Shown here one piece after another: positions 45,450 to 53,195 of a stretch of 64,000 nt of DNA. Positions within the stretch are counted from its first letter, which is position 1. Each line of letters opens with the position of its first letter. Made by a program: the position numbers and the translations under genes. The notes below the pieces were generated by a model. It saw only the letters and a program-made list of their open reading frames with translations, did not search any database and had not been told where the DNA came from. Source of the DNA: Bacteroidota bacterium. Lineage in GTDB: Bacteria > Bacteroidota > Bacteroidia > B-17B0 > Aurantibacillaceae. The DNA lies in the NCBI GenBank assembly GCA_947450025.1, contig CANFTW010000005.1, positions 124,001 to 188,000 of the forward strand. The letters run 5' to 3'.

Positions 45450-45482
45450 AAAAAACGCTAAGTAATATACTTAGCGTTTTTT
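45450..45482 (-). terminator. Intrinsic terminator of rimP-nusA-infB
   Basis: Arms of 15 bp (45468-45482 and 45450-45464) around a 3-nt loop, followed on the minus strand by a U-rich tract. It lies 19 bp past the infB stop. Confidence 0.88.
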
Positions 45483-45500: not shown

Positions 45501-48365
45501 TTATAGCTTTGCTTTAATTTCAACCATGTCATATCCTTCAATAATATCGTCAACTTTAATATCATTAAAGCCATCAATATTTAAACCACATTCATAATTA
45601 GCTGTTACCTCTTTTACATCATCTTTGAAACGTTTTAATGAACCTAAAGAACCAGTGTGAATAACAATACCATCACGAATAACACGCACCTTAGTATTAC
45701 GCATTACTTTTCCATCTAATACATATGCTCCTGCAATTGTACCAACTTTAGTAATATTAAATACTTCACGAACAACAATGTTACAAACGATTTTTTCTTC
45801 AAATTCTGGCGCTAACATTCCTTCCATGGCTGCTTTAACCTCATTAATTGCATCGTAAATAATTGAATATAAACGGATATCAATTTCTTCAGTTTCAGCT
45901 AATTTACGAGCTGTAACCGATGGACGAACTTGGAAACCAACAATAATAGCATTTGATGCGCTTGCTAACATAACATCTGTTTCGCTGATAGCACCAACTG
46001 ATTTATGTATAATATTCACTTGAATTTTCTCAGTAGATAATTTCAATAATGAATCAGATAAAGCTTCAATAGAACCATCCACATCACCTTTCACAATAAC
46101 ATTTAATTCTTTGAAATCACCAATTGCTAAACGACGACCAATCTCATCCAAGGTAATATGTTTTTGAGTACGAATACCTTGTTCGCGCTGTAATTGTAAA
46201 CGTTTGTTTGCTAATTCACGCGCTTCACGTTCATCGCTCATGACGTTAAATTTATCACCTGCCGTAGGTGCACCATTTAAACCTAATAATTGAACAGGCA
46301 TTGATGGACCAGCCTCCTTCACATTTAACCCGAGTTCATTTGTCATCGCTTTTACTCTTCCACTATAACAACCTGCTACAACGATATCTCCCACTCTCAT
46401 TGTTCCTTTTTGAACAATAATATCAACTACATGACCACGACCTTTATCTAATTTTGCCTCAATTACTGAACCAGAAGCCTTTGCTTTTGGATTAGCTTTT
46501 AATTCTAAAATCTCAGCTTCTAATACAACTTTTTCTAATAATAAGTCAATGTTTTTACCCATTTTAGCAGATATCTCTTGGCATTGGACTTTACCGCCCC
46601 ACTCTTCTACTAAGATATTCATAGCTGATAAGGCTTCGCGAATTTTATCTGGATTTGCGCCTGGCTTATCAATTTTATTGATAGCAATAATCATTGGCAC
46701 ACCTGCTGCTTGAGCATGATTAATTGCTTCTTTAGTTTGAGGCATCACGCTATCATCAGCTGCCACCACAATAATAACAACATCCGTTACTTTAGCACCA
46801 CGAGCACGCATCGCCGTAAAAGCCTCGTGACCTGGAGTATCTAAAAACGTAATTGATTTACCGTTTTCCATTTTCACATTGTAACTTCCAATATGCTGAG
46901 TAATACCACCAGCTTCTCCTGCAATTACATTAGATTTTCGAATATAATCTAATAATGATGTTTTACCATGATCAACGTGACCCATGATGGTCACAATTGG
47001 TGGACGCTCTATTAAATCATTAGGATCTTCGGCTTCTTGTTCTTCAATTGCTTCTTGAACCTCAACACTAACAAATTCCGTTTTATACCCAAACTCTTCA
47101 GCAACTATGGCTAAAGTTTCAGCATCTAAACGTTGGTTAATGGATACAAACATTCCCAAACTCATACAAGTAGAAATAATTTGAGTAACAGATACATTCA
47201 TCATTTGTGCTAACTGGTTAGCTGAAACGAATTCTGTTACTTTTAATGTTTTCTTTTCTAAGTCTGACTGCTCTTGTTCATCAGCCATTTTTTCCCTCAC
47301 ATCATCACGTTTATCGCGGCGATATTTAGAAGCTTTTGATTTAGAACCCTTATTACTTAAACGTGCTAATGTTTCTTTGATTTGAGCTTGAATTTCAACA
47401 TCTGTTAAGGCTGGTCGGGCTTCACGAGCAGCAGGCTTCTTTGCACGAGGATCACCATATTTTTCTTTGGCTCTATCTTTTGCTATTTGAGCTTGTTCTG
47501 TGCCAACTTTTTTAATTTCTTCTTGGCTCAATCCACCTTTACGAATACGTTTACGCTTCTTCTTATCTGCTGCATTTGCAGCAGTATTAGAAGTATTAGA
47601 TTTTTTAGGATCCTTAGCCACAGGTAGTTCTATTTTACCCATGATTTTAGGACCTTCTAATTTTTGATAAACTGTCTCATGAAACACTTCTTTTTGTTCT
47701 TCTGCAGGAATATCAACTTCCACATCAGCCGATTCAACAATAATAGGCTTCGCTAATTCGATCGCCTCGTCCTCTTCTTTTTTCTTTTTGGCTTTAGTCG
47801 CTTTTTCAACTTTCTCCTCTGCAGCTTTTTCCTCCTCTTTTTCCTTCTTCGTTTTTTTATCTGGTTTTGTTTTTTGATTTAAGGTGCTTAAATCTAATTT
47901 ACCAAGAACTTTAGGTCCTGATAATATAGATGTTGTGTCTGTAACTTCAGCCACTTCAGGTGTAACAACAGTTTCTTTAGCCGCTTTTTCTAATTCTTCA
48001 GATTTCAATTTAGCGTCTTCAGCTTTGCGCTTTTCTTCTTCAGCTTTAGCAGTAGCTGCTGCTAAAATTTCTCTCTCTTTCTGCTCTTCAAGTTCTTTAG
48101 CTTTAATTGCTTTTGTATCTTCTACAACAATTGATTCGCGTTTTAATTTGCTAAGGTTTAACCCAACATGTTGAGCCTCTTCTTTAGCAGATTTATCCCC
48201 AGAAAACTCTTTTGACAATAAAGAATATTCTTCATCGCCAATTTTAGCATTGGGGTTATTTTCTACTGGGCGACCTTTAGCAGCTAAGAATTCCGTTATT
48301 TTACCCAAAGATAAATTGAATTCTTTAGCTACTTTACTTAATCGCATTGTTTTTGCGTCTGACAT
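45501..48365 (-). CDS. infB: Translation initiation factor IF-2
   Basis: A 954-residue GTPase. An N-terminal IF2_N helix region ([20 protein letters not shown]), a long charged Lys/Glu/Ala-rich linker to about 380, a second IF2_N-like segment ([14 protein letters not shown]), and then the G domain with [17 protein letters not shown] and NKID. Domains II-IV follow to the end. It brings initiator tRNA to the ribosome. I chose the ATG at 48363-48365; the upstream TTG at 48398 lies outside the conserved start. Confidence 0.95.
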
Positions 48366-48463
48366 ATTATAATATTTCCTTGTCTTGTATGTATTCAAAT
48401 TTTACTTTTTTATTTTTTAAAAGAAAGCTAACTTTTAAACTTAACGATAAGTTAATGATTCGA

Positions 48464-49726
48464 TTAATCTTCGAATTCAGACTGAAGCACAGCTTTTACA
48501 TCTTCAATAACATCTTCAGTTAATCCAGTTCTTCTTACTAAATCAGTAACATCTAATTCTAAAACAGATTTAGCTGTATCACAACCAATCGCTTGTAAGG
48601 CATTAATGACTGATTCTTCAATTTCATCAGAGAATTCGATTAAGTCTACATCTTCTATATCAGCAGTCGCTTCATCATTATCGCGGAAGACATCAATTTC
48701 GTAGCCTGTTAATTTACCCGCTAACTTAATATTATAACCACCTTTACCAATTGCTAAAGAGATTTGGTCTGGTTTTAAAAATACCTCTGCACGCTTAGTA
48801 TCTTCATTTAACTTCACTGAAGTTACTTTTGCAGGACTTAATGCGCGTTGAATTAATAATTGTGCATTTGAAGTATAATTAATCACATCAATATTCTCGT
48901 TTTTCAATTCACGAACGATTCCATGAATACGAGAACCTTTCATACCCACACATGCTCCAACTGGATCGATACGATCATCATATGATTCAACAGCAACTTT
49001 AGCTCTTTCACCTGGTTCACGAACAATTTTCTTAATCGTAATTAAACCATCAAAAACCTCAGGAACCTCCATTTCAAATAAACGCTCTAAGAAAGTTGGT
49101 GCGGTACGAGACATAATTACAGAAGGTGTTCCGTTTTTTAATTCTACTTTATAAACAACCGCTTTAACTGAATCTCCTTTTTTGAAGAAATCAGAAGGGA
49201 TTTGTTCAGTTTTAGGTAATAATAATTCATTCCCTTCATCATCCAACAACATAATTTCTTTTTTCCAAACTTGGTAAACCTCAGCATTGATAATATCTCC
49301 AACACGCTCTTTGTATTTATTGTAAATACCGGTTTTTTCTAATTCAAGAATTTTTTGAACTAAGTTTTGACGCACTGATAATACATTACGACGACCAATC
49401 TCATCCAACTTTACTAATTCGGTTACCTCTTCTCCAATTTCAAAATCAGGTTCAATTTTATGAGCATCAGTTAAGCTAATATGTTTATTTGGATCATAAT
49501 CAAACGAATCTTCAGCAAACTCATCATCGACAATTGTTCTGTTTTTATAAATTTCGATATCTCCTTTATCAGGATTTACAATAATATCGAAGTTTTTATC
49601 GGAACCGTATTTTTTGATTAACATGGTACGAAATACATCTTCGATGATGCTCATTAACGTTGCGCGATCAATGTTTTTGTCTTCTTTAAATAACGAGAAT
49701 GATTCAATTAAATTTACACTTTCCAT
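48464..49726 (-). CDS. nusA: Transcription termination/antitermination protein NusA
   Basis: A 420-residue protein with the NusA N-terminal domain binding RNA polymerase, an S1 domain (~135-200), and two KH domains (~205-345, including GACVGMKGSRI and SLAIGKGGYNIKLA). A short helical C-terminal domain (~360-420) follows. It lies between rimP (12 bp) and infB, the usual order. NusA controls pausing and termination, which is relevant to the terminator-like hairpin in the operon's own leader. Confidence 0.95.
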   Translation of the reverse strand: MESVNLIESFSLFKEDKNIDRATLMSIIEDVFRTMLIKKYGSDKNFDIIVNPDKGDIEIYKNRTIVDDEFAEDSFDYDPNKHISLTDAHKIEPDFEIGEEVTELVKLDEIGRRNVLSVRQNLVQKILELEKTGIYNKYKERVGDIINAEVYQVWKKEIMLLDDEGNELLLPKTEQIPSDFFKKGDSVKAVVYKVELKNGTPSVIMSRTAPTFLERLFEMEVPEVFDGLITIKKIVREPGERAKVAVESYDDRIDPVGACVGMKGSRIHGIVRELKNENIDVINYTSNAQLLIQRALSPAKVTSVKLNEDTKRAEVFLKPDQISLAIGKGGYNIKLAGKLTGYEIDVFRDNDEATADIEDVDLIEFSDEIEESVINALQAIGCDTAKSVLELDVTDLVRRTGLTEDVIEDVKAVLQSEFED

Positions 49727-49738
49727 TGTTTTGTTTTT

Positions 49739-50203
49739 TTAAAATGGTAATACTGATTTTGTTTCTTTTACTTGATTATATGTTAGGGTTATATTTTCAA
49801 CAACTGTATGGTTTCCTTTGCCAACTGTTTTCTTTTCTCTTCTCGTTTCATCGATCACAAATTCATTTTCATTGGCACTTTTTAAGATTCCTTCATGCTT
49901 CGAACCCTCTTTTGTTACTACTTTTACCTTAGTGCCAATGTATTTTTTATATTGGTGTAATACTTTGAATGATTCAGTTGCTCCTGGAGAAGACACTTGT
50001 AATTCAAAATCTTCTTTTTCCCGATCTAAACTGCTTTCAATATGTCTGCTTAGAGCCACACAATCAGCAATTACAACATGATTTGGAGCATCAATATAAA
50101 CTTCTATTTTATTCCCAGTTAATACTTTTACATCAACAATAAACTTGTCGGTGCCTGCAAAATGCGCTTCAATTAAATCTAATATTGTTTGTTTTTTTAT
50201 CAT
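49739..50203 (-). CDS. rimP: Ribosome maturation factor RimP
   Basis: A 154-residue protein with the RimP N-terminal alpha/beta domain (DCVALSRHIESSLD, ELQVSSPGATE) and the C-terminal SH3-like domain from about 85. It helps 30S subunit maturation. It heads rimP-nusA-infB and has a well-matched promoter plus a 55-nt leader holding a terminator-like hairpin. Confidence 0.92.
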   Translation of the reverse strand: MIKKQTILDLIEAHFAGTDKFIVDVKVLTGNKIEVYIDAPNHVVIADCVALSRHIESSLDREKEDFELQVSSPGATESFKVLHQYKKYIGTKVKVVTKEGSKHEGILKSANENEFVIDETRREKKTVGKGNHTVVENITLTYNQVKETKSVLPF

Positions 50204-50215
50204 TTTTATAAAATA

Positions 50216-50239
50216 AAAAAGGGACTTTTCGGTCCCTTA
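50216..50239 (-). promoter_or_regulatory. Terminator-like hairpin in the rimP-nusA-infB leader (candidate attenuator)
   Basis: On the minus strand the leader forms AAGGGAC-loop-GUCCCUU (7-8 bp, 6-nt loop CGAAAA) followed at once by UUUUUUAUUUU. It stands about 13 nt before the rimP ATG and about 20 nt after the predicted transcription start. No minus-strand gene lies upstream that would need a terminator here. Confidence 0.6.
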
Positions 50240-50265
50240 TTTTTCTATCATCTTATTTTCGGTCA

Positions 50266-50297
50266 CAAATGTAAACATAAATTAGTTAAAAAACAAA
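50266..50297 (-). promoter_or_regulatory. Promoter of rimP-nusA-infB
   Basis: On the minus strand, TTTG (50297-50294), a 20-bp spacer, and TACATTTG (50273-50266) match the Bacteroidota consensus TTTG-N19-21-TAnnTTTG exactly. Transcription would start near 50258, giving a leader of about 55 nt. Confidence 0.75.
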
Positions 50298-50431: not shown

Positions 50432-50728
50432 ATGGAAACTTTTAAAAAATCTTCAAAGGGTGGTACTTTATTCTCAATTCTCTTCATGCTTTATTCTATA
50501 GCTGGACAAGCACAAGCAAACGGCAAATTCCTAAACGAAAAGCCTAAAGATCTGATTATTAGTGCCTATATTGTAGGAGGTGTGATGCTGGTTGGCATTT
50601 TAACTTTTGCTATTGCTAAAATTGCAGCAAAATACTCGAAAGAGGAGGATGGAAATGAGAGAAAAATAAGCCGAACATTATCCCACCGTCATCGCCATCA
50701 CAATAGAGTGATAAAAAAGAGCAGCTAA
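50432..50728 (+). CDS. Small membrane protein with His/Arg-rich tail, unknown function
   Basis: I do not recognise this 98-residue protein. It has a first hydrophobic stretch (~12-30) ending AGQAQA that may be a signal peptide, a second, clear membrane helix (~42-64), and a basic tail with SHRHRHHNRVIKKSS. If the first segment is cut, the tail would be cytoplasmic; if not, the protein is a two-helix hairpin. The gene lies alone between the divergent rimP promoter and acpP. The His cluster could bind metal or nucleic acid, but that is a guess. Confidence 0.6.
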   Translation: METFKKSSKGGTLFSILFMLYSIAGQAQANGKFLNEKPKDLIISAYIVGGVMLVGILTFAIAKIAAKYSKEEDGNERKISRTLSHRHRHHNRVIKKSS

Positions 50729-53169: not shown

Positions 53170-53195
53170 AAAGCCCTTTCAATTGAAAGGGCTTT
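53170..53195. terminator. Bidirectional terminator between rnc and ettA
   Basis: A perfect 26-bp palindrome (13-bp arms centred on AATT) with a GGGC core and an A run on the left side, between convergent genes. It serves ettA on the minus strand best. Confidence 0.85.

Follow-up and report, generated by a model that had tools for sequence, protein, structure and literature searches.

We suggest that the short hairpin and U-tract lying between the promoter and the start codon of rimP probably constitute a transcription attenuator of the rimP-nusA-infB operon, at which NusA would drive termination and thereby exert feedback on its own operon; the termination, the drive by NusA and the feedback are all predictions from sequence. 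The window, i.e. the whole 64,000 nt stretch of DNA analysed, encodes on its minus strand rimP (49739-50203, ATG at 50203), then nusA (48464-49726) and then infB (45501-48398). The gene identities come from Pfam: RimP_N and DUF150_C for rimP, NusA_N and KH_5 for nusA, the proposed source of the feedback factor, and IF-2, GTP_EFTU and IF2_N for infB, which encodes IF2.

The promoter named in a preliminary description of this DNA, TTTG-N20-TACATTTG, can be read directly on the minus strand at 50297-50266 and fits the Bacteroidota promoter consensus, TTTG / TAnnTTTG, quoted in PMC7366714. It consists of a -33 element, TTTG (50294-50297), and a -7 element of the form TAnnTTTG, TACATTTG (50266-50273). 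The spacing of the -33 element is kept in many leaders of the class: 64 of 129 have TTTG at the expected position, against a mean of 2.25 at control offsets, and this element played no part in selecting the leaders. Assuming a start site approximately 5 nt past the TACATTTG box, the predicted transcribed leader is approximately 58 nt long (50204-50261, minus strand). The preliminary description gave it as 55 nt with the hairpin at its centre; the hairpin stands, and its position is corrected to the 3' half of the leader, with a gap of 27 nt between box and hairpin.

The terminator hairpin, AAGGGAC-CGAAAA-GUCCCUU, has 7 bp and occupies 50219-50238 on the minus strand, as supported by folding, conservation and the hairpin model R1. 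The U-tract UUUUUUAUUUU (50210-50220, minus strand) would form the 3' end of a leader RNA of approximately 45-50 nt. In brief, the tract is composed of U6 at 50220-50215, two U's of which belong to the stem, plus U4 at 50213-50210; the hairpin ends 15 nt before the rimP ATG. The leader folds with -13.1 kcal/mol (z = -3.84) and none of 200 shuffles was equally stable, which together with the sequence itself bears out the earlier claim of a terminator-shaped GGGAC/GTCCC hairpin with a U tract ahead of the rimP ATG. Model R1, trained on 16 loci chosen by hand, all with a loop of 5, gives the minus-strand hairpin 26.2 bits, with E 6e-4 over the window, and the plus-strand reading 16.1 bits. Using the same caller on the 26 window ORFs that have at least 60 nt of intergenic DNA upstream (from 51 ORFs of at least 100 codons), the combination of box, hairpin and U-tract was found in front of one only, rimP, whereas the TAnnTTTG box occurs in front of seven.

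The closest ORF upstream of rimP (50432-50728) is divergent and on the plus strand, and the terminator is thus not needed by any nearby minus-strand gene, in agreement with the preliminary description. Read on the plus strand, the window hairpin also has a U-tract, so that it is formally bidirectional and might be taken for a terminator of antisense transcription through rimP. This we regard as extremely improbable, since the hairpin sits downstream of a conserved minus-strand promoter and the T's following the stem outnumber the A's preceding it in 94 of 130 class loci, against 27 with the opposite bias.

Absence of the hairpin from close relatives was among the refutations listed in the preliminary description; we found the hairpin in all 18 rimP leaders of the same genus, 17 of them with the exact box; two further genomes of the genus gave no rimP match. 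In the class Bacteroidia, 130 of 140 rimP leaders have box, hairpin and U-tract, while 20 rounds of dinucleotide shuffling of those 130 left the combination in 0.9 leaders on average and never in more than 2. It should be noted that the 140 loci come from 139 genomes (G046 is counted twice) and were gathered in two parts. The first holds 50 of 56 matches, leaving out a second piece of G019 as well as G022, G037, G050, G052 and G053, of which G050 and G052 entered the set later through a second profile search. The second holds 90 of 181 matches, mainly better-scoring ones not already included, with unsystematic omissions (e.g. G084, G105, G121, G140, G175, G196 and the second copy in G198).

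The position of the hairpin in these leaders bears on whether it acts on transcription or on the message. A translational or mRNA-stability hairpin, working on the rimP start codon or the 5' end, would suit the 15 nt that precede the ATG in the window, which is also the median in the class. Over 124 class loci, however, this distance varies from 4 to 42 nt (5th-95th percentile) and the U-tract is kept, whereas the hairpin start lies within a narrower range from the promoter box (median 22 nt, 5-95% 11-28, the caller having demanded that the hairpin lie no more than 60 nt from the box). We consider such a role very improbable.

A second set of class leaders was anchored on nusA. Five of its 80 loci were dropped for too little upstream DNA, and 71 of the 75 usable leaders have box and hairpin, one of these calls (L220) being poor and probably spurious; in the other four a hairpin is seen by eye and no pair of box and hairpin was accepted by the caller. 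The stem GGGAC/GUCCC is present in 56 of the 71. This set includes Bacteroidetes and Bacteroidia bins, Fluviicola, Crocinitomix, Sphingobacteriaceae and others; it shares some genomes with the rimP set, several contigs being of identical length in both, and is an alternative route to the same element, not a fully separate sample. Two of its loci, L187 and L215, are titled Saccharibacteria and Actinomyces and have a nusA 68-76% identical to the Bacteroidota nusA of the window; they are probably mislabelled bins.

NusA is the classical enhancer of hairpin termination. As we envisage the attenuator, RNA polymerase would start approximately 5 nt past the TACATTTG box and make the hairpin and then the U's within about 50 nt. 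Part of the complexes would terminate, freeing a leader RNA of approximately 45-50 nt, and the remainder would read into rimP-nusA-infB. NusA on the elongating polymerase would favour termination at the hairpin, and high NusA would thus lead to less NusA synthesis. We found no sign of an antiterminator in the form of excess pairing between the pre-hairpin RNA and the 5' arm, a run of at least 6 nt being present in 3.1% of leaders and 3.3% of shuffles. Because only approximately 6-23 nt are transcribed ahead of the hairpin, there is little room for an aptamer or a leader peptide. A protein on the polymerase would be the simplest regulator, and NusA is encoded downstream.

Operons without rimP help to tell apart the possible sensors. 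A RimP_N match is missing in 17 of 197 class genomes. One of these (G059) has no nusA match either, and in three (G120, G187 and G197) a diverged rimP is nonetheless present, preceded by the usual box and hairpin. In 13 genomes no rimP was seen ahead of nusA, the upstream DNA of one (G143) being only 420 nt. Nine of the 13 have box, hairpin and U-tract 5' of nusA itself, followed by infB; they come from three families, six from f16, one from f25 and two from f61 (loci L300-L306, L313 and L314), and in one of them (G125) the hairpin lies approximately 140 nt ahead of the nusA start. In f44, folding shows a hairpin with a poor U-tract in two genomes (G079 and G115), neither of which has a called box and hairpin; in a third (G143) the hairpin is boxless and lies 293 nt before its nusA match, and in G061, a 0.5-Mb genome, no hairpin was found ahead of nusA. 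A genome of another class (G317), likewise without a RimP_N match, has a small GGGC/GCCC hairpin and U6 before nusA. Because RimP_N misses divergent RimP, as in the three genomes above, some of the 13 could carry a rimP at another place. A search with PF17384 in 12 of them (G061 excluded) gave no clear rimP, five having sub-threshold matches and seven none. Where both genes were compared by coordinates, rimP and nusA are adjacent in 115 of 115 genomes; a suspected split of the two in G210 and G123 was rejected, as both proved adjacent.

The element would thus go with nusA-infB rather than with rimP, and the presence of box and hairpin before nusA in nine of the 13 operons without rimP makes NusA a likelier sensor than RimP. 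The same argument does not favour NusA over IF2, because IF2 is also encoded downstream. The attenuator could accordingly answer another product of the operon, either IF2 (or translation status) or RimP binding to the hairpin, and the stem GGGAC/GUCCC, conserved in 90 of 130 class hairpins, could be read as a binding site. RimP is however not needed in the nine operons that keep the element without it, and the sequence and G/C polarity of the stem differ between classes, which argues against one fixed binding site. We hold control by either product to be quite unlikely.

The differences in the stem are as follows. Within the class, other hairpins carry matched changes, such as GGGAAC/GUUCCC, GGGGAU/AUCCCC, GGGGUC/GACCCC and GGGAG/CUCCC. 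Double-sided changes were found at seven of nine pairs in alignment A3, more than in any of 500 shuffles or any slid version; as A3 was fitted to the model and holds antisense rows of some loci, the test is lenient and the counts are inflated. An alignment of 104 hairpins by sequence (A1) was set aside in favour of A3, its 5' arm being misregistered owing to variable loops. Outside the class, 61 of 66 rimP leaders from the phylum (92%) have a terminator-like hairpin, compared with 47 of 198 shuffles (24%). These 66 were taken from 110 matches, favouring better-scoring ones, and a few of the 61 hairpins are doubtful on account of a weak stem or poor U-tract (e.g. L292 and L294). The stems are clade-specific, with GUCCCGC/GCGGGAC, UCGCCC/GGGCGA, AAAGUGGGG/CCCCACUUU and GUGAG.GUC/GGC.CUCAC as examples. 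The 5' arm is richer in G in 35 of the 61 and richer in C or equal in 26. Since these stems differ from clade to clade, the terminator shape is kept while the sequence changes. This fits a terminator more readily than a protein-binding site of fixed sequence, even though variation inside each clade is unusually low.

We also speculate, and regard it as rather unlikely, that in Bacteroidota the whole control takes place in the first approximately 50 nt of the transcript, where the polymerase would reach the terminator directly after escaping from the promoter; the element would then read whether NusA has already taken the place of the phylum's unusual primary sigma factor. In that case the class-wide GGGGAC/GUCCCC stem would be adapted to Bacteroidia NusA or recognised by it, and each class of the phylum would have a matched stem of its own.

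The 22 top matches of model R1 in the 197 genomes all lie 5' of rimP, and 13 of them were training members. Lower-scoring matches are mixed: of 12 that were inspected because no rimP match adjoined them, four are rimP leaders (L148, L149, L151 and L152) and eight lie elsewhere. A regulon common to the hairpin was rejected, as the ORFs following these eight have no evident shared gene among them. It should be noted that R1 is insensitive genome-wide, scoring being limited to 33 candidates per genome; a match at E up to 0.01 was obtained in 92 of 197 genomes, and the genome of the window is without one.

Some lineages have no such element. Six genomes of families f42 and f50 (G077, G113, G142; G094, G127, G155) keep rimP-nusA with no box and hairpin, and the boxless hairpins called in three of them fall inside the rimP frame; the element thus seems dispensable in some lineages. 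Ten of the 140 loci of the class set are without a called box and hairpin. Four (L012, L043, L105 and L111) have a hairpin by a looser caller without the exact box, in L044 a hairpin is seen by eye only, and none was found in L107, L112, L120, L127 and L133. L107, L120 and L127 (f50) and L133 (f42) belong to genomes of approximately 2 Mb, in which rimP-nusA is kept and the leader is very short. Loss of the attenuator in these genomes is possible.

That some families do without the element, and that neither a sensor nor an antiterminator fold is visible, would fit a constitutive partial terminator, which sets a fixed low output from a strong promoter without feedback. A weaker promoter would however lower the output equally, the terminator has long been conserved ahead of the gene for a termination factor, and feedback by NusA is reported at the same place in Bacillus subtilis (PMC12288461). 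We find a purely constitutive terminator unlikely and prefer the NusA-driven attenuator, a reading already offered in the preliminary description and strengthened here by conservation in the class, by the nine nusA-led operons and by literature on other phyla; the role of NusA in this phylum is inferred.

The element is real and belongs to the known rimP-leader kind, described by Naville and Gautheret 2010 (PMC2965389) as an attenuator in bacteria generally with NusA as the proposed regulator, and ranked first among attenuated genes in their survey of 302 species. As there, a terminator hairpin and U-stretch lie just ahead of rimP in rimP-nusA-infB, and window and class share the G-rich 5' arm, the C-rich 3' arm and the conserved GGG...CCC stem. 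The general form has no antiterminator, as in our pairing test, and its hairpin lies 4-130 nt from the start, a range with which the window is compatible. The stem signature is described as specific to rimP leaders, which holds for our 22 top R1 matches and is mixed for the lower ones. In contrast, the published stem is GGGc/gCCC whereas that of the class is GGGGAC/GUCCCC, with an A-U replacing the fourth pair in the window, and the G-rich 5' arm differs from the 26 of 61 C-rich or equal arms in other classes of Bacteroidota. The main text of that paper (PMC2965389) contains neither 'Bacteroid' nor 'Flavobacter'.

Comparable leaders are reported from Firmicutes. In Streptococcus agalactiae, RNA-seq of gbs0413-0418 (rimP-nusA-infB-rbfA) showed that short and long RNAs share a start site, with termination 31 nt downstream of it, and NusA feedback was proposed (PMC4448216). 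In the window the terminator likewise follows the predicted start site by some tens of nt, and the end is predicted at approximately +45 to +50, whereas termination at +31 was observed in S. agalactiae. For the B. subtilis nusA operon, autoregulation via NusA-stimulated intrinsic termination in the leader is stated as established in a review (PMC12288461); that leader is approximately 180 nt long (PMC2965389) versus the approximately 58 nt predicted here. Within the phylum, a structured transcribed 5' element upstream of rimP, conserved in other Flavobacteriaceae and without an Rfam hit, is reported for Flavobacterium psychrophilum (PMC9723704). It concerns the same phylum and gene and is only listed there, the entry giving no motif, mechanism or link to the rimP leader. 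Rfam gave no hit over the window at the gathering threshold and nothing credible at a permissive one. The Gammaproteobacteria rimP leader, RF01770 (rimP), is of the same gene and kind; membership was rejected, as the window reaches 17.5 of the 47 bits that the cut-off requires, and does so on the plus (wrong) strand. Among the top-ranked matches in mainly open-access literature we found no prior description of a phylum-wide motif or of the operons without rimP.

NusA control in Bacteroidota would carry a prominent example of transcription-factor autoregulation into a phylum whose sigma factor and promoters are atypical. Most of the operons seen without rimP, where the hairpin still leads nusA, provide a natural experiment that separates NusA from RimP as the likely sensor, and the leader of approximately 58 nt offers a compact target for testing NusA-dependent termination in Bacteroidota.

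The divergent plus-strand ORF at 50432-50728 encodes 98 aa, including a hydrophobic stretch and a C-terminus rich in His, and has no Pfam match; similar-looking short ORFs lie divergently 5' of rimP in L149 and L152, which belong to other families. Elsewhere on the minus strand of the window, ordinary strong terminator-like hairpins adjoin ORF ends at 53170-53195 and 45450-45482.
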